This document shows, piece after piece, positions 16,047 through 31,415 of a stretch of 31,415 nt of DNA. The DNA lies in IMG/VR virus record IMGVR_UViG_3300030329_004653, positions 1-31,415 of that record; one strand, given 5' to 3'. Position 1 is the stretch's first letter; the number at the start of each line of letters is the position of its first letter. The position numbers and the translations under genes are program-made. Source of the DNA: a virus. The notes below the pieces were generated by a model that searched no databases, was not told where the DNA came from, and saw only the letters and a list, made by a program, of their open reading frames with translations.

Positions 16047-16376
16047 TTAGTCTAGGGCTTTTCCCACTAATTCCTCAGCGGTATCCTCTATTGTGTCTTG
16101 GTTCAGTATCTTTGCCTGTGCCTCATCGATTGCCTCGTGGATTTTATCTCTCATAAGGTTTCTCCAGGCATTAAGCACGACATCCTCTATAGGTCCATCC
16201 TTTATGTGTTCCTTGATGAATTTCTCAACATCGGCATCTAAAGTTGCCTGTTTCTCATCAATCGCCTTGTTTACCTCATCTGAAAGTTTCTCAGCCAATG
16301 CTGGGATGTATTTCCCGATAAACCTCTTTACTTTGGCTTTCGCCTTGTTTCTCCACCAATTGCTCAATCTGCTCAT
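16047..16376 (-). CDS. small charged helical protein
   Basis: A 109-residue protein when started at ATG 16376 (MSRLSNWWRNKAKAKVKRFI), which has an AGGGGAAG ribosome site and overlaps no other gene. A longer TTG-started version lacks such support. It is helical and highly charged, with a basic N-terminal amphipathic stretch and an acidic remainder (DEVNKAIDEKQATLDADVEK, then EDTAEELVGKAL). It is the gene next to the small membrane protein and two genes before the small-terminase candidate. I do not recognise it; an accessory packaging or lysis protein are both possible. Confidence 0.6.
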   Translation of the reverse strand: MSRLSNWWRNKAKAKVKRFIGKYIPALAEKLSDEVNKAIDEKQATLDADVEKFIKEHIKDGPIEDVVLNAWRNLMRDKIHEAIDEAQAKILNQDTIEDTAEELVGKALD

Positions 16377-16377
16377 T

Positions 16378-16545
16378 TTATTCTTCCCCTTTCTGCCTTG
16401 ACCCAAAGTAGAAACCCAAGACTATCAAGGTTGCATCGCTGATATTGTCATTGTCAACGAAGATAAAGGCGGCAACCAGCATCAAAGCCAGTATCGCCCT
16501 TACAGAACCCTCAGGCAATGCCAAAGGCTTGTCAGGGTCAAACAC
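16378..16545 (-). CDS. 55-residue membrane protein (holin-like)
   Basis: A short frame from GTG 16545 to TAA 16378, starting with FDPDKPLALPEGSVRAILAL and continuing into a hydrophobic segment LMLVAAFIFV, then a second hydrophobic stretch LIVLGFYFG and a polar tail SRQKGEE. A 'LPEGSVRAILAL' run before a membrane helix is something I have seen in other small phage membrane proteins. It overlaps the end of the upstream gene (probable coupling) and ends one base before the next ATG. With its neighbour it could form a holin pair. Confidence 0.65.
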   Translation of the reverse strand: MFDPDKPLALPEGSVRAILALMLVAAFIFVDNDNISDATLIVLGFYFGSRQKGEE

Positions 16546-16738
16546 CTTTCATCATCAGCGAGATGCCGAATGATATGGCTGCTGTCCAGCCAAGCACCCA
16601 GATTCGCCAATCCTCAATAATCCGAAGTCTCCTGTCAAGTCCAGATATTCCAGATTTAACCTCATCAATATCCTCTTTGATGGATTGAGTCCGCTCATCC
16701 ACCTTTCCTAAAGTTACCGACAGGTCCTCTTTTGACAT
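16538..16738 (-). CDS. 66-residue coiled-coil and membrane-anchor protein (XhlA-like)
   Basis: Starting at ATG 16738 (MSKEDLSVTLGKVDERTQSI), the protein has a charged coiled coil in residues 1-45 (IKEDIDEVKSGISGLDRRLR) and one C-terminal transmembrane helix (WVLGWTAAISFGISLMM). This layout is that of the small XhlA/hemolysin-type proteins that act with holins in phage lysis. A longer reading from 16828 adds a hydrophobic leader that overlaps the divergent promoter and looks unlike a protein. AAGGA precedes ATG 16738. It is the first gene of the leftward arm. Confidence 0.7.
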   Translation of the reverse strand: MSKEDLSVTLGKVDERTQSIKEDIDEVKSGISGLDRRLRIIEDWRIWVLGWTAAISFGISLMMKGV

Positions 16739-16772
16739 TATCCTTATATTAAGCGAAAAAACACTAAATGTA

Positions 16773-16801
16773 TTGACAAAGAGGCTGTTTTCAGTTAATA
16801 T
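16773..16801 (+). promoter_or_regulatory. near-consensus sigma70 promoter reading right
   Basis: TTGACA (16773-16778) is followed after exactly 17 bases by TAATAT (16796-16801), with an A-rich stretch upstream. Transcription would start near 16808 and run into the GC-rich non-coding region and then the small-gene array. It lies just upstream of the first leftward gene. Confidence 0.75.
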
Positions 16802-17192
16802 TAGCACAGGGAAGGGCATAATTAGCACTTACATACTAGAGAGTGAGAGAGAATAATTACAAATTATCCTAAGAGAGTTCACAAAACCAGAGTTTTTAGT
16901 TAGAGCATCAGCACTATATTTAGGGTCAGGCTAGGAAAAATCAATAGCCCCCATACCCCCCTAGGGTATAGCAATTTACCGCAAAAAGGCTACAGAATCC
17001 AAGCCAAGAAAGGGACTTTTGAGCATACCCCCGCTGGGTATCCCCGCCCCGCTTTCCTGCGGGTCTTTCTTTTCCTTGCTTTCTGGATTGCTCCCCCGCT
17101 CTCCTGGTCTCTACCTGTCCACCCCTAGAAATGATACTTGATAAACCTAGATTTCTATTAGCCCCGCATAGGGTCTTTCTATTGCCTGTATT

Positions 17193-17222: not shown

Positions 17223-17857
17223 CACACACTCAGGGGAAAATGTAGAGGATGCTCTCTATGGGGCTTATTTGCCCCTCTCCGTTTGCTTTCCCCTGGTGTA
17301 TCTGTTGCCCCTCTGGTAGTTCCTGCCTGTCTCCTTTTTTCCTGGTCTTGGATTTCTGCAGATTCTGGCGGGGCTTTTGGCGGTTTTGTTTGCCTGATTC
17401 TGCCCAGGTTTAGGCTGTTTGTCTAGTTTTTGCAAGGCTTTTTTCCTCGAGAGAATCCAGAAAGTCATATATCGATGTCTAGAATTCGGGTTTATGGTGT
17501 TATGATTCCCTTGGCGGATGGTTGATAGCCTGAAAGGATACCGCCCCCAGGGGTAGACCTCTGGGAACTGAAAGGTTGAAATTAGGGATGAGAAAGCCCT
17601 AGAGCCTGGGACAAGACCGCCCAGACTGACAAAGCCCCAGGGGGTAGAGCCAAGAGTAAACCTGGAAAGCCGATAGCCTGGCGATAGCCCAGGGGGTCAG
17701 AATACCCCTGGAGATTCTGGAAATTTAATATTCCAGAGGGTAGGGCGAAATATTCACCTGCAGAGAGTGAATGGCGGTATAGAGCCTGGGACAATCCCAG
17801 GGGCTAGGCAGTCCCTAGTTAAGTAAAAAATCATAAATAAATTAAATCTCAATAGGC

Positions 17858-17881
17858 GGGGGTTAGGGTTTCCTAGCCCCC
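17858..17881 (+). terminator. very stable hairpin near the end of the non-coding region
   Basis: GGGGGTTAGG pairs with CCTAGCCCCC (10 bp, one G-U) around a four-base GTTT loop, followed by AGAATTTGCG. It could end a separate RNA or form an attenuator before the small-gene array, but it lacks a proper U run. Confidence 0.45.
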
Positions 17882-17898
17882 CAGAATTTGCGATAATC

Positions 17899-17921
17899 TG
17901 CAGGGTCAAAAGACCCGCCTG
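17899..17921 (+). repeat. array hairpin, copy 0 (diverged)
   Basis: TGCAGGGTC, an AAAA loop, then GACCCGCCTG: a shortened relative of the array stem-loop, with GGGTC/GACCC as its stem. It stands before the first array gene, 28 bases ahead of the conserved leader. Confidence 0.5.
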
Positions 17922-17960
17922 AAAGGGTACAAAAAGATGCCGATTATTGGAGATAAATTT

Positions 17961-18164
17961 ATGCAAACAATAGTGTACAAACTCAAGACGGAAAGGGCAA
18001 GACAAAAAGCCCTAAAAAAGAGGTTAGAGGGGGCAATAATTACCCTCGCAGATAGGTTCTATCACCTCGAGGAAAAACAGGATAGGAGTATGTTGAAATC
18101 TAGAGCGGATGCCCTTCAATATTTCAATGATAAAATTGAGGAAATCATTAGCGATTTTAGATAG
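17961..18164 (+). CDS. array gene 1: small basic helical protein
   Basis: A 67-residue protein starting MQTIVYKLKTERARQKALKK. I chose ATG 17961 because it follows the leader GGAGATAAATTT that precedes nearly every gene of this array; an in-frame ATG 24 bases upstream has no such site. The protein is helical and charged, with many Lys and Arg in its first half and an acidic end (FNDKIEEIISDFR). It is unlike the acidic products further along. Function unknown. A stem-loop copy begins five bases after its stop. Confidence 0.75.
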   Translation: MQTIVYKLKTERARQKALKKRLEGAIITLADRFYHLEEKQDRSMLKSRADALQYFNDKIEEIISDFR

Positions 18165-18168
18165 AGTT

Positions 18169-18207
18169 AACCCTGCAGGGCGGAGAAATTCCGACCCTGT
18201 CAGGCTT
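18169..18207 (+). repeat. array hairpin, copy 1
   Basis: Nested stems: CCTG/CAGG outside, CAGGG/CCCTG inside, CGGA/TCCG at the tip, with single-base bulges (A, T) on the 3' side. A block of about 50 bases is identical to copy 2. Confidence 0.85.
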
Positions 18208-18251
18208 ATCTTATAGTCAGGTAAAAGACTCAAAAACCAGGAGATAAATTT

Positions 18252-18551
18252 ATGAGCAACAGAAAGATGATTAGGGAATATGACCAAGTAGGGGCGGACG
18301 GTTTCGCTGTAGCCCTGTCAGGATACACAGGCAGATGGGAGACCACTGAGGATATCACAGACTCAGGGAAAGCACAGGCTAGAATAATGGCACAAATAGA
18401 GGATGCCCGCTGGTGGTTAGCCAGGGCATCGGGAATTGTTAGCGAGTCCAAAAGGAAATCTAACGGGCTAAGCCCCGAGGATTTGGAACTTCTGGCGATA
18501 TGTCAGAACAACCTCGCCCTATGTCAATTTTATATGGAATATACCGAGTAA
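18252..18551 (+). CDS. array gene 2: hypothetical protein, helical
   Basis: A 99-residue protein starting MSNRKMIREYDQVGADGFAV. After the conserved AGGAGATAAATTT leader it reads mostly as helices (ARIMAQIEDARWWLARASGI, then LSPEDLELLAICQNNLALCQ) and ends in YMEYTE. The composition is balanced, with several Trp and two Cys in the last third. I do not recognise a family. It stands between hairpin copies 1 and 2, which are identical, so this gene could be gained or lost by recombination between them. Confidence 0.8.
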   Translation: MSNRKMIREYDQVGADGFAVALSGYTGRWETTEDITDSGKAQARIMAQIEDARWWLARASGIVSESKRKSNGLSPEDLELLAICQNNLALCQFYMEYTE

Positions 18552-18566
18552 AAAGCGGTAAGAGTT

Positions 18567-18605
18567 AACCCTGCAGGGCGGAGAAATTCCGACCCTGTCA
18601 GGCTT
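18567..18605 (+). repeat. array hairpin, copy 2
   Basis: Same nested stems as copy 1 and identical over about 50 bases. A second shared block, AGACAAGACCAAAAAATC, leads into the ribosome site and is found again after copy 4. Confidence 0.85.
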
Positions 18606-18650
18606 ATCTTAGAGAGTCAGACAAGACCAAAAAATCAAGGAGATAAATTT

Positions 18651-18737
18651 ATGAGGGTTTTATTAGGTAAAAATATGATAATTTACACCAAAACCAAAAA
18701 AGGCAAAAAAGCCAAGATTAGGGGATGGGTAGATTAA
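18651..18737 (+). CDS. array gene 3: 28-residue basic peptide
   Basis: A very short frame (MRVLLGKNMIIYTKTKKGKK and eight more residues) behind a perfect AAGGAGATAAATTTATG leader. The leader is the reason to accept it as translated. The peptide is strongly basic with a hydrophobic start. It may be a functional small peptide or the remnant of a longer array gene. The following 120 bases to the next gene hold only hairpins. Confidence 0.55.
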   Translation: MRVLLGKNMIIYTKTKKGKKAKIRGWVD

Positions 18738-18856
18738 GACCGCAAGGGGCGGGAAACCGCCCCCCAAGGTAAGACTCGCAAGGTAACCCCCGCAAGGGTG
18801 AGGGTTATTTTAAGACCCGAAAAGGGCAACCCCGCAAGGGGCAAGGAGATAAATTT
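18738..18856 (+). other. string of small hairpins between array genes 3 and 4
   Basis: This stretch has no full array stem-loop. Instead it carries GGGGCGG-GAAA-CCGCCCC (18746-18763) and a run of tiny stems with GCAA or GAAA loops (ACCCCCGCAAGGGT, CCCGAAAAGGG, CCCCGCAAGGGG) up to the leader of the next gene. Short Cs, a GNRA loop and matching Gs recur before other array leaders as well. Confidence 0.6.
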
Positions 18857-19063
18857 ATGAACGAAGAAATTAGTATAGATGTGAGGGCGGTATACGATAC
18901 TACGATATATGTAACTCAGGCAGATTATGACAGAGCCGAGAGGGAATACATAGCGGACTATGGAAAAAAGCCAGACAGGGAAGAAGTTTTGAATTCCCTA
19001 GTATGGGATAACCTCGATGAGGTTACAAATGATAGCCCAGAACTAGAAATCTTAGAATATTAA
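18857..19063 (+). CDS. array gene 4: small acidic protein
   Basis: A 68-residue protein starting MNEEISIDVRAVYDTTIYVT. It is strongly acidic (I count 19 Asp/Glu against 6 Lys/Arg). Strands in the first half are followed by a helical part (YDRAEREYIADYGKKPDREE) and an acidic tail (NDSPELEILEY). It follows a perfect leader. The family is not recognised. Compact acidic early proteins of phages are sometimes DNA mimics or inhibitors of host enzymes; that is only a possibility here. Confidence 0.8.
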   Translation: MNEEISIDVRAVYDTTIYVTQADYDRAEREYIADYGKKPDREEVLNSLVWDNLDEVTNDSPELEILEY

Positions 19064-19068
19064 GTTTG

Positions 19069-19112
19069 AAACCTGCAGGGTTAGGGGGCAACCCCGCCCT
19101 GTCCAGGTTTTT
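19069..19112 (+). repeat. array hairpin, copy 3
   Basis: AAACCTG/CAGGTTT outside (7 bp), CAGGG/CCCTG inside, tip GGGG-GCAA-CCCC with a GNRA loop. It ends in TTTTT, so it may also work as an intrinsic terminator. Confidence 0.85.
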
Positions 19113-19133
19113 AATTAAAGTTATGAAATTTTA

Positions 19134-19260
19134 AGACCTAGTCAATCATAGGGAGTAATTAACCTGAGTGATTCCCAGGGGAAAAGGGGCTAATCTAGAA
19201 GTCAGACCGAAGTAACCAGGATGGTAAGGGACAAGTTCCACTAGGCAAGGAGATAAAGTT
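19134..19260 (+). other. geneless spacer, possibly structured, ahead of a start-stop codon pair
   Basis: CCTAGT (19137-19142) can pair with ACTAGG (19240-19245) and close a domain of about 100 bases that contains GGGA/TCCC and many short G and C runs, composition like the 17.5 kb region. It ends in the leader AAGGAGATAAAGTT, but the ATG is followed by AAT TAA. It could be the place of a lost gene or a small regulatory RNA. Confidence 0.4.
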
Positions 19261-19269
19261 ATGAATTAA
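19261..19269 (+). other. two-codon frame ATG-AAT-TAA behind a full array leader
   Basis: The conserved ribosome site is intact (one base change), yet the frame ends after Met-Asn, and the stop codon lies in the outer stem of hairpin copy 4. Either a gene was deleted cleanly between leader and hairpin, or a start-stop element holds ribosomes there. Confidence 0.55.
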
Positions 19270-19310
19270 TCCCGCAGGGTTAGAGGGCAACCTCGCCCTG
19301 TCAGGGTTAA
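19266..19310 (+). repeat. array hairpin, copy 4
   Basis: TTAATCCCG/CAGGGTTAA outside (8 of 9 pairs, one G-U), CAGGG/CCCTG inside, tip GAGG-GCAA-CCTC. Relative to copy 3 the tip shows a paired change (G-C to A-T), which supports a real RNA stem. Confidence 0.85.
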
Positions 19311-19353
19311 TTTTAAGTGTCAGACAAGACCAAAAAATCAAGGAGATAGATTT

Positions 19354-19488
19354 ATGAGTTACGAAAAATTGCAAAAAAGATGTATGTTTTATAAAGACCT
19401 TTGGTTGAAAGAAAGAGAGGAGAAATGGACATACTTAATTGAGTGTAGGAGATTGGAAGAAGAAATTTTGGCGATTGATAAGAAATAG
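19354..19488 (+). CDS. array gene 5: 44-residue charged helical protein
   Basis: Starts MSYEKLQKRCMFYKDLWLKE after AAGGAGATAGATTT and continues as one long charged helix (TYLIECRRLEEEILAIDKK). It has two Cys and looks like a short coiled coil or small DNA/RNA-associated peptide. Function unknown. The leader block in front of it (AGACAAGACCAAAAAATC) is the same as the one before array gene 3. Confidence 0.7.
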   Translation: MSYEKLQKRCMFYKDLWLKEREEKWTYLIECRRLEEEILAIDKK

Positions 19489-19516
19489 GCAACTTTCAAT
19501 AATAAATCCTAAATAG

Positions 19517-19561
19517 TTAATCTTGCAGGGTTAGGGGGCAACCCCGCCCTGTCAGGGTTAA
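19517..19561 (+). repeat. array hairpin, copy 5
   Basis: TTAATCTTG/CAGGGTTAA outside (9 pairs counting G-U), CAGGG/CCCTG inside, tip GGGG-GCAA-CCCC. It is followed by several GNRA mini-hairpins and the 14-base word AAGGTCATACTCGC (19604-19617). Confidence 0.85.
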
Positions 19562-19638
19562 TTTTAAGACCCGTAAAGGGCAACCTCGCAAGGGTAAGAC
19601 CGCAAGGTCATACTCGCAAGAGGTAAGGAGATAGATTT

Positions 19639-19920
19639 ATGAGCGATAACACATACAACGGATGGACAAATTGGGAGACTTGGCTAACTGCCTTACATAT
19701 CAACGAAACACCAAGCATATTAGAGAGTTTCCAAGAGATGTACCACTACGACAAACCCACCTGCAGTATTGGAGAAAATGACAAGATTCTAAAAGAATAC
19801 ATAATCGAATTTTTTCACGAATTTAGCGGGGGCTATGTTGAGGAAACACTCCACATTGAAAGCCACCACATTGATTGGGCTGAAATATGTGATTCTCTAT
19901 ATGAGGAAGAGGGATGGTAG
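19639..19920 (+). CDS. array gene 6: very acidic 'GWTNWETW' protein
   Basis: A 93-residue protein opening MSDNTYNGWTNWETWLTALH. The 'YNGWTN-x-ETW' motif recurs at the N-terminus of a small protein family in phages, plasmids and host chromosomes (DUF7249-like, from memory); its function is not known to me. This member is very acidic, 20 Asp/Glu against 3 Lys and no Arg. It follows the leader AAGGAGATAGATTT. A role against host defences or as a host-enzyme inhibitor is possible but only inferred from size, charge and location. Confidence 0.82.
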   Translation: MSDNTYNGWTNWETWLTALHINETPSILESFQEMYHYDKPTCSIGENDKILKEYIIEFFHEFSGGYVEETLHIESHHIDWAEICDSLYEEEGW

Positions 19921-19941
19921 TATGAGGATTATGAATAAATT

Positions 19942-19976
19942 AACCCTGCAGGTTGTGAGAGCAACCTGACAGGCTT
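19942..19976 (+). repeat. array hairpin, copy 6
   Basis: CCTG/CAGG outside, then a continuous CAGGTTG/CAACCTG stem closed by a TGAGAG loop, with one bulged A. The inner stem differs from copies 1-5 on both sides, so pairing is kept. Confidence 0.8.
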
Positions 19977-20017
19977 ATTTTAATAAAAGACCTAGAAATA
20001 GGCAAGGAGATAAATTT

Positions 20018-20518
20018 ATGGAAACATTAAGAGAGGGCTATTTACCGAAAGGCAAGTACCTAATTTCCGACCCCTGTTATATTCAATATAGCAAAAGGGA
20101 CAAGGCGGATACAGATAACTCGATTTGGAGTGATTTCTGCGATGCCTTACACAAAAAGGAAAGAGAGACAAACCGCAATGGGGTTGTTTTTGACTTTAGG
20201 GGTTACGAGTTATTTGTATCAGGTACTGCTCACGGAGATGGAAGTTATTGCGGAAATAACGGAGAAATTTACGGAGTGGATGCGGGAATTTTGGGATGTG
20301 TGCCTGTAGAGGTTGCAGACCCTGATTTTGTCCAGGAAGTAAAAGAGGGCAAAAAGTCGTATATCACTTATCACGAATTTGATTCTGAGATTGAGTGTTA
20401 TTACGATGAGGGCAAGGTTGTTATGGGAAGTGTTGAGATAGACACAGACCCGCCAGACCCCGATGCCTGTCCAGAATGTGGATATATCGATTGTTGCGAT
20501 GAGGATTGTGAGGGTTGA
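20018..20518 (+). CDS. array gene 7: 'YLISDPCY / HGDGSY' protein with Cys-rich tail
   Basis: A 166-residue protein, the longest of the array. It contains GKYLISDPCYI, later SGTAHGDGSY and YGVDAGILGCVPVEVADPDF, a motif order I know from conserved hypothetical proteins of phages and bacteria whose function has not been settled. The C-terminal 20 residues hold five Cys (CPECGYIDCCDEDC), probably a small zinc knuckle or disulphide-rich tail, and the protein as a whole is strongly acidic. It starts after a perfect AAGGAGATAAATTT leader. Confidence 0.85.
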   Translation: METLREGYLPKGKYLISDPCYIQYSKRDKADTDNSIWSDFCDALHKKERETNRNGVVFDFRGYELFVSGTAHGDGSYCGNNGEIYGVDAGILGCVPVEVADPDFVQEVKEGKKSYITYHEFDSEIECYYDEGKVVMGSVEIDTDPPDPDACPECGYIDCCDEDCEG

Positions 20519-20528
20519 TAAAAGTTTG

Positions 20529-20566
20529 AAACCTGCAGGTTGTGAGAGCAACCTGTCCAGGTTTTT
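20529..20566 (+). repeat. array hairpin, copy 7
   Basis: AAACCTG/CAGGTTT outside (7 bp), CAGGTTG/CAACCTG inside, loop TGAGAG, bulge TC, then TTTTT-type tail. It combines the outer stem of copies 3 and 9 with the inner stem of copy 6. A CCCGAAAGGG mini-hairpin follows before the leader. Confidence 0.85.
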
Positions 20567-20601
20567 AATTTAAAATCCCGAAAGGGTAAGGAGATAAATT
20601 T

Positions 20602-20757
20602 ATGGAGTCTTACAAAAAGTACAAAAACCCACAAAACGACTACGAGGTGATTTGGAACAAATATTGTTCCTGTCGCAAATGGGAATTGCTTGAAGTGATT
20701 TATTCACTTGAAAAGCATAACCAAGTGACACCCTGCTACGACCCCAACAGGAAGTAG
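20602..20757 (+). CDS. array gene 8: 51-residue protein with CxC motif
   Basis: Starts MESYKKYKNPQNDYEVIWNK after a perfect leader and contains YCSCRKWELLEVIYSLEKHN and a late TPCYDPNRK. Three Cys (CxC plus one) might bind metal. It shares the opening 'MESY' with the next array gene, but beyond that the two differ. Function unknown. The stop is followed after four bases by hairpin copy 8. Confidence 0.75.
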   Translation: MESYKKYKNPQNDYEVIWNKYCSCRKWELLEVIYSLEKHNQVTPCYDPNRK

Positions 20758-20761
20758 TTTT

Positions 20762-20799
20762 AACCCTGCAGGGCGGAGAAATCCGACCCTGTCAGGGTT
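20762..20799 (+). repeat. array hairpin, copy 8
   Basis: AACCCTG/CAGGGTT outside (7 bp), CAGGG/CCCTG inside, tip CGGA/TCCG with bulges A and T on the 3' side. Downstream come repeated AAGGTAGAAACCGC words and a CCCGAAAGGG mini-hairpin. Confidence 0.85.
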
Positions 20800-20879
20800 T
20801 TAATTACAAGGTAGAAACCGCAAGGTAGAAACCGCAATTATCAATTTAAAAAGACCCGAAAGGGCAAGGAGATAGATTT

Positions 20880-21137
20880 ATGGAAAGTTATGACCAAAAA
20901 TACAACAGGTATATTATTGTGGATTGGGCGAACAACAGATGTTTTAGGGATTTGAGATACAGAAATGGCTATAAAGAATTTAATTCTTTTCATTGTGCCT
21001 GGGAGTATCTAAATAAAGTCTCTTATCAATTGTTTGGAGACAATCAAGACAAAAGGGATGAGTGGGAAGAAGATTTTTATTTCTACCTAGAATCCGATTG
21101 GTTGAACGATGAGGATAACGGAGTATACGAATATTAA
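20880..21137 (+). CDS. array gene 9: small acidic aromatic-rich protein
   Basis: An 85-residue protein starting MESYDQKYNRYIIVDWANNR. It is rich in Tyr, Trp and Phe (for example EEDFYFYLESDWL) and acidic (19 Asp/Glu against 10 Lys/Arg), ending in NDEDNGVYEY. It follows AAGGAGATAGATTT. No family recognised. The acidic tail resembles that of array gene 4 (both end in EY before a GTTTGAAACCTG hairpin), which may hint at shared history of these two cassettes. Confidence 0.8.
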   Translation: MESYDQKYNRYIIVDWANNRCFRDLRYRNGYKEFNSFHCAWEYLNKVSYQLFGDNQDKRDEWEEDFYFYLESDWLNDEDNGVYEY

Positions 21138-21142
21138 GTTTG

Positions 21143-21181
21143 AAACCTGCAGGGCGGTTTTGCCGACCCTGACAGGTTTTT
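21143..21181 (+). repeat. array hairpin, copy 9
   Basis: AAACCTG/CAGGTTT outside, CAGGG/CCCTG inside, tip CGG/CCG with a TTTTG loop and two bulged A's, followed by a T run. This is the last clear copy of the array. Confidence 0.85.
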
Positions 21182-21197
21182 AATTTCAGGGTTACAC

Positions 21198-21826: not shown

Positions 21827-21855
21827 TTCAAAAATAGCAATACCTGTGCTAAGAT
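21827..21855 (+). promoter_or_regulatory. probable promoter of the second rightward unit
   Basis: TTCAAA (21827-21832), 17 bases, then TAAGAT (21850-21855) preceded by TGC, an extended -10. A 9-bp inverted repeat, ATTGTTGTA/TACAACAAT (21860-21896), lies where transcription would begin and could be an operator or a leader hairpin. Confidence 0.45.
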
Positions 21856-21932: not shown

Positions 21933-22166
21933 ATGCAAAACATTTTAAAGACATCGTTAGAAATGCTTTTAAAGGTACTAACGGATGCACAAACCACAGA
22001 ACAGGAAAAACTTTCAACCTATGAAAAATATCCTGATTTGGAAAGTGAGGACAAGGGACATATTTTAGGATACATTGATGGATTGGGCTATGCGGTAAAT
22101 ATAGTCAAGAGTCAATTGGATATGGTCAAATTGGCGGAAGATTTTACAGGGAGTAGGGAATGTTAA
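21933..22166 (+). CDS. small hypothetical protein, first gene of the second unit
   Basis: A 77-residue protein starting MQNILKTSLEMLLKVLTDAQ. It is helical with a short loop around GHILGYIDGLGYAVNIV and an acidic character. It is preceded by a CCCGAAAGGG mini-hairpin and AGGAGACG, a variant of the array leader, so the same signal type extends into this unit. Its stop overlaps the next start. Function unknown. Confidence 0.7.
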   Translation: MQNILKTSLEMLLKVLTDAQTTEQEKLSTYEKYPDLESEDKGHILGYIDGLGYAVNIVKSQLDMVKLAEDFTGSREC

Positions 22167-22528
22167 ATAGTGAAAGTGAATTTTATTCAACATTATTTGA
22201 TGCTACAAAGCCGATGAGGGAATCTATAAGACCGCATAGAGAGGTGTTGCACAATGACCCAAAAATGCCTAAAAAGAACTCCCAATGTTGGAAGATACTA
22301 AAAAGGTTTGTAGAAAGCAATGGAGTCCTTTTCACAGGGGACTTTATGCTTATGTATATCGCAAGATATGGTGCAAGGATAGGAGACCTACGGAACAAGT
22401 ATGGTTGGACTATCACAACAAAGAAAATCAAGCAAGGAAAGACTCAATACACTTTGGATGAGGATGAATACTACAGACTCTATATGAAGAAGTTTGAGAT
22501 TTTCGGAGATGATTTAAATTTTAATTAA
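22160..22528 (+). CDS. winged-helix DNA-binding protein
   Basis: A 122-residue protein. After a polar N-terminus it shows the pattern of phage winged-helix domains: a helix QCWKILKRFVESNGVLFTGD, a turn, the recognition-type helix RYGARIGDLRNKYGWTI and a wing of strands (TTKKIKQGKTQYTLDEDEYY). Such proteins occur near replication and regulatory genes and often act as origin-binding or regulatory factors. It overlaps the gene before it by seven bases and is followed by an HTH regulator. Confidence 0.72.
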   Translation: MLNSESEFYSTLFDATKPMRESIRPHREVLHNDPKMPKKNSQCWKILKRFVESNGVLFTGDFMLMYIARYGARIGDLRNKYGWTITTKKIKQGKTQYTLDEDEYYRLYMKKFEIFGDDLNFN

Positions 22529-26766: not shown

Positions 26767-26794
26767 AAGGTCATACTCGCAAGGTCATACTCGC
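26767..26794. repeat. tandem 14-base repeat AAGGTCATACTCGC
   Basis: Two exact copies side by side immediately before the ATG of the 82-residue gene. A third copy with one change lies inside that gene (26695-26708), and an exact copy is found in the small-gene array (19604-19617). Confidence 0.8.
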
Positions 26795-26795
26795 A

Positions 26796-28082: not shown

Positions 28083-29696
28083 TTAAATCTTTACTTCAGA
28101 ATACCTCATTACACAAACCCATTTCATATTTTTTCCTGTAATACCCTCGACAGTAATCTTTAAGGCATTATTTGTGTTGTCGGCAGTAACATTAGCATCA
28201 GCACCACCAGCAGCGAAAGTGGTTGATGGGTTGGCTGTCTTTGTTACAGAGCCTTGACCAGCAAGTGCAGTAGTTCCACTATCATTTACTATTGAGCCAA
28301 CAAAAGTAGCACCAGCATTTATAGTTCCTGGTGCTGTTTCATCAATACAGGATAGTTGAATTTCAAAGGTTACTAAAGAATCTGTATCTATAGTGAATCT
28401 GTAACCAGCACCAGCAGCCAAACTATCGGCAAGATAAAGGACTGTGGCTGCAGCATTTGTTGTTCTACCAGCAAAAACTACTGTACCCGCTTGAGCCTCT
28501 CCAGCAGTAAAGTTACTACTTCCAGCACCCCCAACTGCAAATTCGCCATATCTTTTTGAGTCTGCCTTTATGCCAGTAGCAACACTATTTATTCCAGTAG
28601 CAACATTACTCTGCCCCCCAATAACAACAGATTCTGAACCAGATGCTGTATTTAACCTACCAGCAAAAACTCCTGAATATGTGCCAGATGCTGTTGAATC
28701 AAGGTTTCCTACAACAGCAGAATAACTAGCAGATGCTGTGTTTCCATTTCCACCAATAACCGAAGAATGAGCAGCACTAGCAGTATTGTTCTCTCCAGCA
28801 ATTAAAGTGGAATTAACACCACTAGCAACTTCAGTTGCATTATCTCTTTCGGTTTGTAAGTCTACTGAATTTTCGCCTCTGGAATTTCCAGCAACAGCAC
28901 CTTGATTTGCTGCCTCTATATCGTATGTGCCATCTGAACCTTGAACAGTACCACCAGAACCACTTGTGATAGCCCAAGAGCAAGTACCATCCCCATCCTC
29001 TCTCAAGAACTTGTTTCCACCAGTTTCTCCTGTAGATTTGAGTTCTGTTCCCTCAAGGTCGCAATTTATCGTTACCTTGTCGGTTGCACCAGCAACAGTA
29101 TTTATTCCTGTTCCACCCTCAATATCAACAGTATTGGCATCAGTTATTGTTTGGCTAGAGCCAGAATCTCCAGACAGTGTCCAACTTGACATTGAGCCAC
29201 CACCACCACCACCGCCAGAAGTCAAGTCATATTCAGTTCCACCATCATTCTTGAAATAAATCTTTCCATCATTCTTCTCATAGAAAACACCCTCTCCAGA
29301 ACTTGGTGTGCTTGGTGCTGTAGTTCCAGCACCCTCTTTGATATACAAAGCACCACCAGAAGTGTCATTTCCTTCCATTCGGAATCTTTCGTTTCCACCA
29401 GTATCAAACCTTATCTTGTCCTCATCAGTAGATTCTTCTGTATCTACCTTTGTGTCCTTGTCTTTGTCTTGGATTATTGATTGTGTACTTACTATAGAAT
29501 CATCATTTGGATTAAGTTCTTCTGGGTCATTATCGTTATAGCCACCTGTTCCAGGAGAACCCATCTCTTCTGATGACATCTGTACTGGTCTCGTAGTGTC
29601 AATGAAATCCACCCTTTCAGAACTTTTCTTGGTAAAGAATCTTGACATATATCTCTTTAATGTCTTTAATGGTCTTTTTCTGTCAAATATACTCAT
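28083..29696 (-). CDS. tail fibre with trimeric head-domain repeats
   Basis: A 537-residue protein. The N-terminal 130 residues are polar and acidic. A seven-Gly linker (SGGGGGGGSM) comes near residue 165. Residues from about 285 to 380 contain YadA-like 14-residue repeats, for example ENNTASAAHSSVIGGNGNTA, then SGTYSGVFAGRLNTAS and GSESVVIGGQSNVA. The C-terminal part is a beta-rich Thr/Ala domain. Such repeats build left-handed trimeric beta-rolls, so this is probably the receptor-binding fibre. It is next after the tail-tip gene, separated by two bases. Confidence 0.88.
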   Translation of the reverse strand: MSIFDRKRPLKTLKRYMSRFFTKKSSERVDFIDTTRPVQMSSEEMGSPGTGGYNDNDPEELNPNDDSIVSTQSIIQDKDKDTKVDTEESTDEDKIRFDTGGNERFRMEGNDTSGGALYIKEGAGTTAPSTPSSGEGVFYEKNDGKIYFKNDGGTEYDLTSGGGGGGGSMSSWTLSGDSGSSQTITDANTVDIEGGTGINTVAGATDKVTINCDLEGTELKSTGETGGNKFLREDGDGTCSWAITSGSGGTVQGSDGTYDIEAANQGAVAGNSRGENSVDLQTERDNATEVASGVNSTLIAGENNTASAAHSSVIGGNGNTASASYSAVVGNLDSTASGTYSGVFAGRLNTASGSESVVIGGQSNVATGINSVATGIKADSKRYGEFAVGGAGSSNFTAGEAQAGTVVFAGRTTNAAATVLYLADSLAAGAGYRFTIDTDSLVTFEIQLSCIDETAPGTINAGATFVGSIVNDSGTTALAGQGSVTKTANPSTTFAAGGADANVTADNTNNALKITVEGITGKNMKWVCVMRYSEVKI

Positions 29697-29698
29697 AA

Positions 29699-31415
29699 TT
29701 AATCTTCATCTCCAGCCTGTATGTATTGTGCTGTATTGTTTCTATCATAATCCTCTAATCTAAAATCAAACCTAGCACCCTCTGCATTTACTGTAAACTC
29801 ATAAGAAGTCAAAACACCAGAGAAAGGAGTTGTTCCAGGGTTGGAAGTTCCCACCTTGTCATCTGTTACTGTTATTGTTTGTCCAATAAAAGGAATGTTG
29901 TTTGAGTTTACGAAAGGATTTAATCCATCTAAAGAGTAATCCCTTGCCTGAAATCTTCTCAACTTGTCATCAAGGAACTGTTGTCCTAGACCTTGTGCCT
30001 CACTAAAAGAGAAATTCTCAAGATTTATGGTATTTATCTTATAGCCCATATTTGCTGTTTTTTTGTAAGATGGAGAATAAGGTAATCTTTCAATATTGTC
30101 TTTTAGGGATTGGTTTTTTGTTGTTCTTACAAACAATGCTTTTTTTCCAACTCCTCTTACATTAAATCCAGATAGGAAGTTTCCTGTCTGAACATAACCA
30201 GCCCTCTCTCCGCCAGTATTAGATAAATCTGTATTGTCTATGGCATTTTGAAAGGCAGTTTTGACATAAGGTGTTCCGTAGTACCATTTGTTATGTCTTT
30301 TGTAATCATCAAAACTGTCGTTACTCCAACCCCAAGCATCTTGTCTGTTTCCGTTCCAGTAAGGTCTCCCTGAACCCTGAGTCCAAACATCATCTGCTTG
30401 TGTGAATGTTTCACAAGTTGAACCATAACCCCAAGTCTGGTATCCCATATCCACATTTGTTTGCCTTAGATGTTCTCTACCCTCTCCCCACCAGCCTGGT
30501 TGTGCAAATGGAGATGCCAATGCTAATATCCTTATTCCCTTAACTGAATTTACATCACACTTCTTTAATGTGAACTTTCTTCCTGTTTCGGTTGGCATCA
30601 TTACAGAATTATCATTAAATCTTTCCCAAGTCGTGTCTGAATGGAAAGGGTCTGATACATCTATGTCGGTTGAAACCTCAACCCTGTAAGTTCCGCCTCT
30701 TCCAATACCCATCATACGAACATTATCTCCAGCAAGACCAATATTGAAAGAAAATTCATCTATATCTAGAGCCATTCCACCCCTAAACCAGAATGTAATC
30801 AAATGTAAAGGAGTTTTGTTTCCATCATCACTCAATGTGGGTATTCCAAACTTTCCACCCATGTTTATTCTTTGATTTCTATATGCAACTGTACTTGCTT
30901 CTTTCCATTCACATTTCTTCCAAAGAGATTGGTAAAATATTGCTGTGCTTATTCCAGAGCCATAAATGGGTTCTGTAGCTGAATCCCAATTCTCAACATC
31001 TGGACCAAGACCTCTCAGATGACATACATCATAAAAATATTCTGGAATTGATGAACCACTAGAATATCCATTGGAATCAAACCCAGACTGCCTAGCATTG
31101 TTTGTTGGAACTCCAGAAGCAGCAAAATTACAACCATATTGAAGAATATCTGTTGGGGAGAAATAGTTCTGTTCTGGCATTTGGACCTGCATAAGCTGGG
31201 CAGTGTATACATCAGACATATCCCTTTCCCTTGTAAGGGATGTTACAGACCCAGCAGCGAGTGTTATGTCGGCTGATGACTTCTGGCTCAATGGCTTGAA
31301 TATGACCTTGTTTGTGTTGTCGTCATATCTCAAATCATAAAGCAACCCAGAATCTTCACACAGTTTGTCAATCAGTGGTTTTGGGTTTATTGGAACTTGA
31401 CCACCTTGTGCAAAG
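29699..31415 (-). CDS. tail-tip / central tail protein, C-terminal part (gene enters from the right end)
   Basis: An open frame of 572 codons from the last base of the window to TAA at 29699, without an upstream stop. The first 190 residues repeat the end of the left-hand fragment at about 92% identity (CEDSGLLYDLRYDDNTNKVI and onward). After that come tail-hub-like beta regions (YRVEVSTDIDVSDPFHSDTT, GYQTWGYGSTCETFTQADDV) and a closing half that includes NMGYKINTINLENFSFSEAQ, typical of baseplate-hub proteins. The TTG at 31345 is internal and not a start. The protein continues that of 1-2621. Confidence 0.85.
   Translation of the reverse strand, partial: FAQGGQVPINPKPLIDKLCEDSGLLYDLRYDDNTNKVIFKPLSQKSSADITLAAGSVTSLTRERDMSDVYTAQLMQVQMPEQNYFSPTDILQYGCNFAASGVPTNNARQSGFDSNGYSSGSSIPEYFYDVCHLRGLGPDVENWDSATEPIYGSGISTAIFYQSLWKKCEWKEASTVAYRNQRINMGGKFGIPTLSDDGNKTPLHLITFWFRGGMALDIDEFSFNIGLAGDNVRMMGIGRGGTYRVEVSTDIDVSDPFHSDTTWERFNDNSVMMPTETGRKFTLKKCDVNSVKGIRILALASPFAQPGWWGEGREHLRQTNVDMGYQTWGYGSTCETFTQADDVWTQGSGRPYWNGNRQDAWGWSNDSFDDYKRHNKWYYGTPYVKTAFQNAIDNTDLSNTGGERAGYVQTGNFLSGFNVRGVGKKALFVRTTKNQSLKDNIERLPYSPSYKKTANMGYKINTINLENFSFSEAQGLGQQFLDDKLRRFQARDYSLDGLNPFVNSNNIPFIGQTITVTDDKVGTSNPGTTPFSGVLTSYEFTVNAEGARFDFRLEDYDRNNTAQYIQAGDED
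30846..31415. repeat. right copy of the diverged terminal overlap
   Basis: Gap-free match to bases 1-570 at about 89% identity, in the same reading frame of the same gene. Differences are concentrated at third codon positions, and some 16 of 190 residues change. Confidence 0.9.

Follow-up and report, generated by a model that had tools for sequence, protein, structure and literature searches.

In cluster K mycobacteriophages, a repeated motif that contains a Shine-Dalgarno sequence (start-associated sequence, SAS) stands at the starts of many small non-structural genes and is accompanied, upstream of a subset of them, by an inverted repeat (extended SAS, ESAS); these inverted repeats are 17 bp long and tightly linked to the start, and the sites lie dispersed across half a genome (PMC3203893, PMC12699233). 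The promoter early stem-loop (PeSL) of T4-type phages is presented in PMC4503421 (citing Arbiol 2010 and Comeau 2014) as a repeated stem-loop between the small genes of a plastic region, followed by a promoter and thought to mediate gene shuffling. Here we describe an array of small genes on the plus strand (17.95-21.18 kb) of the IMG/VR virus record IMGVR_UViG_3300030329_004653, which was analysed whole (31,415 bases; hereafter the window) and in which near-identical translation leaders alternate with ten hairpins, c1 to c10. The reading that we hold with moderate confidence is that of an accessory operon of small genes, each cassette consisting of a leader, an open reading frame (ORF) and a U-tailed hairpin, in which the cassettes would be co-transcribed and the hairpins would bring about partial termination or RNA protection.

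The array resembles these two systems most closely in its layout, but on the defining features tested it belongs to neither. Like SAS/ESAS, it repeats a motif with a Shine-Dalgarno core at some of the gene starts (ten leaders). In contrast, the 13-bp SAS consensus GGGATAGGAGCCC, searched at up to two mismatches, was found at no array start, its one match (at 22376) lying inside a coding region, which agrees with the claim of an earlier note on this DNA that the sequences differ from those of cluster K. Moreover, whereas the cluster K inverted repeat stands beside the start and its sites are scattered, the bulged hairpins of the array follow the previous stop and its sites form one block. The earlier note, which knew of only one comparable arrangement, had overlooked the PeSLs, which the array resembles in that, in a plastic region, its stem-loops separate small genes. 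The array differs from the PeSL in having no sigma-70-like promoter above shuffles in its spacers (the scan being limited to the sigma-70 type), and its carrier is not a T4-like myovirus but a virus of about 31 kb with portal, HK97-type capsid, Mu F-like and tape measure proteins. We know of no shared translation leader in PeSLs. The arrangement thus looks like one known in principle from other phages, with sequences that are new.

Results

The leader, GGAGATARATTTATG, was found in ten copies at no more than one mismatch, all on the plus strand between 17949 and 20882 and all inside the array, while shuffles of the window yielded a mean of 0.19 copies and a maximum of 2 at up to two mismatches. 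GGAG stood at a constant spacing from the ATG in 10/10 leaders. The near-identity of the leaders at ten starts, as previously claimed, was upheld; the full 17-mer AAGGAGATARATTTATG was present in seven of the ten, the other three reading TTGGAG.., CAGGAG.. and ..AAAGTTATG. Genes of the same phage outside the array had different leaders, e.g. AAGGAGACTAAAGAATG or AAAGGAGAGTAATATG. The 17-mer also occurred in 77 IMG/VR contigs, with one match per contig, in unrelated contexts and with no repeated arrays among them; since the single word is so widespread, the signal lies in its repetition, not in the word. The leader might be bound by a factor, from phage or host, that controls translation from all ten starts together, with the hairpin as part of the signal, as conservation that continues beyond the Shine-Dalgarno core as far as the start codon (10/10) and the different leaders elsewhere in the phage would suggest. 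We regard this as very unlikely: the identity is accounted for just as well if the modules were recently duplicated or converted, and the hairpins do not clearly raise the accessibility of the leaders (mean 0.60 with hairpins versus 0.55 with shuffled flanks, 1/10 individually notable). The same values lend no support to the idea that the hairpins act as insulators and keep the ribosome site exposed.

Nine small ORFs make up the array, encoding in order 67, 99, 28, 68, 44, 93, 166, 51 and 85 residues. Between the 68- and 44-residue ORFs, the leader at 19247-19263 opens a two-codon ORF only (ATG AAT TAA), followed by a hairpin, so that of the nine to eleven genes proposed earlier nine stand (28-166 residues) and this one leader opens an empty slot. 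Known relatives were found for two of the nine proteins: the 93-residue product belongs to DUF7249 (Pfam PF23907, E 3.8e-10; phrog_871, E 1.1e-8), and the 166-residue product matched phrog_20074 (E 2.3e-19), with homologues by tblastn in Acinetobacter phages including the T4-like Acj9 and Acj61. Comparison of the small array proteins with defence families gave no match beyond chance.

A covariance model (CM) built from six hairpin copies detected nine copies on the plus strand (at 18165, 18563, 19065, 19264, 19515, 19938, 20525, 20758 and 21139; 35-67 bits) and a diverged copy at 18781 (13 bits), matching the nine clear copies and one diverged copy counted in the earlier note, and no further plus-strand copy in the whole window up to E = 1. 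The outer arm reads AACCCTG or AAACCTG and is paired with CAGGGTT, CAGGCTT or CAGGTTT; the inner arm (CAGGG/CCCTG) is joined to it directly on the 5' side and through a bulge of 1-2 nt on the 3' side, and the centre is a variable inner stem-loop, giving stems of about 15-21 pairs with the bulge. Folding energies of the nine clear copies ranged from -18.9 to -30.2 kcal/mol (z = -3.8 to -7.5), with 0/200 shuffles as good. In c6, which contains two U-G wobbles, plus-strand RNA folded at -28.8 versus -16.6 for minus-strand RNA. All ten hairpins lie 3' of a stop codon and 5' of the next leader, in most cases with fewer than 15 nt between stop and hairpin, and the distance from hairpin end to next leader was 21-68 nt where measured and once about 135 nt. 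When 15 pairs of a hand-set structure were counted over six copies, 96.5% of cells were paired, against 25-56% in control registers slid by 1-3 columns; three pairs had changed on both sides (11/500 shuffles), and the covariation score was 0.129 versus 0.068 (3/500 shuffles). No Rfam family reached its gathering score, the best match, at 22.2 bits (E 0.6), falling short of its cut-off of 43.

Every hairpin carries 5-6 T in the 8 nt after its GC-rich 3' arm (10/10), in three different tail sequences; the mean of 5.8 compares with 1.7 in the background and 2.2 after other AGG sites. The upstream flanks, with a mean of 3.7 A of 8, are less A-rich than the tails are U-rich, and the hairpin element therefore has a direction. 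A GC-rich stem followed by a U-rich tract, as in an intrinsic terminator, is thus present, albeit with U tracts interrupted by A. The uniformity of the tail after every 3' arm would favour terminator-like 3' ends, which the earlier note had not proposed. A sigma-70 promoter in each spacer was not supported, there being no excess of promoter-like sites of this type over shuffles; the simplest reading is therefore a single transcript that is partly terminated, or has its ends protected, at each hairpin, and expression of the array as one RNA, as proposed earlier, is likely.

The lack of such promoters between the genes also speaks for the main rival, in which the hairpins would be RNA processing sites cut by RNase III or a phage double-strand-specific nuclease to leave separate small mRNAs with protected ends. 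Bulged stems of this length between genes are also in its favour, as is the better pairing of several copies, c6 above all, as plus-strand RNA. The early region of T7 has RNase III processing hairpins between genes of one transcript, and the array is like it in placing hairpins between phage genes of a putative single transcript. It is unlike it in the U-rich tail that follows every hairpin, a conserved feature that processing does not require; moreover, cleavage here is hypothetical, the sequence identifies no cleavage site, and as RNase III substrates c7 and c8 would be short. We thus consider processing possible but unlikely. Protection of upstream mRNA is within the reach of the repetitive extragenic palindromes and bacterial interspersed mosaic elements (REP/BIME) of enterobacteria, which are intercistronic hairpins as are those of the array. 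The array hairpins differ in running head-to-tail in register with the genes within one phage locus, and identity with REP was rejected, the array holding no REP core and the two loose matches lying far outside it.

Exact blocks of 17-51 nt are shared between the modules, different parts of one module matching different partners. Copies c1 and c2 share 51 nt (the whole hairpin), in keeping with the identity over about 50 bases seen earlier, and c2 and c5 share 30 nt (spacer and leader); c4 matches c6 over 30 nt (loop), c10 over 26 nt (gene end and 5' arm) and c8 over 19 nt (3' arm and tail); c7 and c8 share 24 nt of loop while their arms are not shared, and c5 and c6 share 24 nt (3' arm and tail). 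CAGGTTT 3' arms occur in three copies, precisely those whose 5' arm reads AAACCTG (chance under random assortment 1/84), and arm types agree on both sides in all nine clear copies (3 + 6). This exchange of loops between arms that stay matched is our best evidence that the pairing has probably been kept by selection. Within this genome, the pairing proposed in the earlier note is backed by folding, both-side changes and matched arms. The best reading of the mosaic is that recombination between copies may have spread the intergenic modules and patched them.

Mosaic modules with exact shared blocks of up to 51 nt would also be expected if the repeats were chiefly DNA homology for swapping small genes, their function in RNA being secondary. 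The empty slot at 19261, the gene ends GAATATTAA conserved ahead of c4 and c10, and the difference of the locus in relatives point the same way. Yet the arms stay matched despite loop exchange, and pairs have changed on both sides, which argues that folding itself is kept; furthermore, no integrase or transposase was found among the proteins scanned, which covered part of the ORFs. This explanation therefore seems rather improbable to us. Each integron cassette is a small ORF without a promoter and with an imperfect inverted repeat (attC) behind it, a build that the array shares. Identity with attC was rejected, no RYYYAAC...GTTRRRY boxes being present at the hairpins on either strand, and, unlike in integrons, no integrase was found within the scope just given. 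Finally, the modules might have no present function and be recent copies left by a duplicated gene-plus-spacer unit. Some modules are indeed nearly identical, but the array proteins show no similarity to each other above alignment noise, and diverged copies still pair and still carry U-rich tails; we give this explanation hardly any credence.

Exact-pattern scans, which diverged arrays could escape, brought up no relative carrying the array in IMG/VR, INPHARED or PLSDB, and the array DNA had no match among phages and plasmids. A loose hairpin pattern gave >120 single matches, as chance predicts, and the one match of a strict pattern was rejected as lying inside a coding gene. The 166-residue protein and the joined right-arm protein pair, used as queries, returned no viral relatives. 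The contigs of three close relatives (G001, L210 and L211; terminase 76% identical to that of G001, capsid 90-91%) end before the array. Two 32-kb contigs, L212 and L213 (57-58% in the metallophosphatase), span the syntenic locus between the genes at 16538-16828 and 22160-22528. They hold other small genes there, with neither the leader (by pattern) nor the hairpin (by CM), and the locus is therefore variable. Several of these genes have a repeated promoter-like start module, TTGACTA-n-GTGTATATTG ... AGTATGGAAACAAA (seven copies aligned), and the locus has G-rich terminators with 8-9 T. The lineage thus appears to have a plastic small-gene locus with repeating regulatory modules in more than one form. 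For the comparison with related phages suggested in the earlier note, no relative with either the genes or the hairpins of the array was found. The note's view of cassette-like modules gains from the mosaic, the empty slot and the difference of the syntenic locus in relatives.

In these contigs, the promoter-like start module TTGACTAnGTGTATATTG..AGTATGGAAACAAA lies ahead of small genes at 11620-18230 in L212 and 11440-20100 in L213, and an early-gene block is inverted between them (L212 12517-15137 versus L213 15400-12776). Both ends of the window, 280-797 and 31103-31390, match G001 16191-16727; the window may hold two related copies of this piece.

Table 1. Coordinates of the leaders, ORFs and hairpins of the array and of the region ahead of it (all plus strand; MFE, minimum free energy).
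Feature	Position	Description	Evidence
Upstream stretch	17520-17900	structured non-coding, possible long 5' leader	MFE z = -4.2, 0/100 shuffles as good
Half-hairpin	17897-17925	diverged, ahead of first leader	CTGCAGGGTC..GACCCGCCTG; without outer arm, folds differently
Cassette 1	17947-18164	leader 17947-17963, 67-aa ORF from 17961	leader + ORF
c1	18165-18212	hairpin	CM 66.5 bits; z -4.4
Cassette 2	18238-18551	leader, 99-aa ORF from 18252	leader + ORF
c2	18563-18611	hairpin	CM; 51 nt same as c1 region
Cassette 3	18637-18737	leader, 28-aa ORF from 18651	leader + ORF
c3	18778-18812	diverged hairpin, U-rich tail like others	CM 13.1 bits; tail TTATTTTA
Cassette 4	18843-19063	leader, 68-aa ORF from 18857	leader + ORF
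c4	19064-19118	hairpin	CM 51.5 bits; z -3.8
Cassette 5	19247-19269	leader + empty slot (ATG AAT TAA) adjoining c5	two-codon ORF
c5	19264-19316	hairpin	CM 61.0 bits; z -5.5
Cassette 6	19340-19488	leader, 44-aa ORF from 19354	leader + ORF
c6	19515-19567	hairpin	CM; two U-G wobbles
Cassette 7	19625-19920	leader, 93-aa ORF from 19639	DUF7249 / phrog_871
c7	19938-19986	hairpin	CM 48.6 bits; z -4.7
Cassette 8	20004-20518	leader, 166-aa ORF from 20018	phrog_20074
c8	20524-20575	hairpin	CM 34.8 bits; z -5.3
Cassette 9	20588-20757	leader, 51-aa ORF from 20602	leader + ORF
c9	20755-20806	hairpin	CM 67.1 bits; z -7.5
Cassette 10	20866-21137	leader, 85-aa ORF from 20880	leader + ORF
c10	21138-21188	hairpin, closes array	CM 53.4 bits; z -6.3

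The structured stretch directly upstream of the array contains repeats of type CCTGGGACAATCCCAGGGG and could be a long structured leader. Tandem units of 14 nt, of type CGCAAGGTnAnAC, occur at 18761-18797, 19585-19627, 20807-20837 and 26767-26795, several of them forming GNRA-like mini-hairpins just 5' of leaders. An exact 13-nt sequence, ATnTTAGCACAGG, flanks the array region in opposite orientation at 16798-16810 and 21843-21855; it is a possible operator and not significant. The main genes, on the minus strand, encode terminase, portal, Mu F-like protein, prohead protease, HK97-type capsid and tape measure by protein profile matches, and it is by these predicted genes that the metagenomic genome of about 31 kb is a siphovirus-like phage. 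A tail-region protein at 28083-29696 has a repeat stretch with a weak match to LbR_Ice_bind (ice-binding beta roll; E 0.0004, below the cut-off). Terminase and capsid queries gave 0 matches among GTDB genomes, so that no host was indicated.

Discussion

In the accessory operon that we propose, the array genes would be transcribed together from upstream, the cassettes being promoterless; at each hairpin a fraction of the polymerases would stop, or the RNA end would be trimmed back to the hairpin and protected, and each gene would thereby gain its own defined 3' end. The near-identical leader would provide each gene with a similar, strong translation start, and recombination between module copies would allow genes to enter or leave the position between leader and hairpin. 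Transcription as one unit, termination of a fraction of transcripts or protection of their ends, and the exchange of genes are what we infer from the sequence of the array in a single genome. Several observations weigh against it. Covariation is modest because most outer and inner pairs never vary (nine of twelve in the main helix) and because the copies are all related and within one genome, so that the shuffles overstate their independence. The interruptions of the U tracts by A count in the same direction, as do the textbook terminators with 8-9 U at the relatives' locus, next to which the array hairpins would be weak terminators. A simple terminator scan, too, found no excess (9 versus 6.3 expected); it permits no bulges and for this reason misses most array hairpins.

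A bolder version, which we consider quite improbable, is that leader and hairpin form a portable docking frame that accepts small genes of any kind, with the empty slot as an unfilled frame, and that one phage factor sets at once how the 3' ends form and how all the genes are translated; the array would then be an integrase-free counterpart of the integron with post-transcriptional control.

Phages keep fast-changing stretches of small accessory genes, often acting against host defences, and the process by which such genes are captured and gain working expression signals is poorly understood. With the same leader and the same type of hairpin for each gene, mosaic modules and an empty slot, the array would make this process of capture testable, and its elements would offer a way to look for more small accessory genes.

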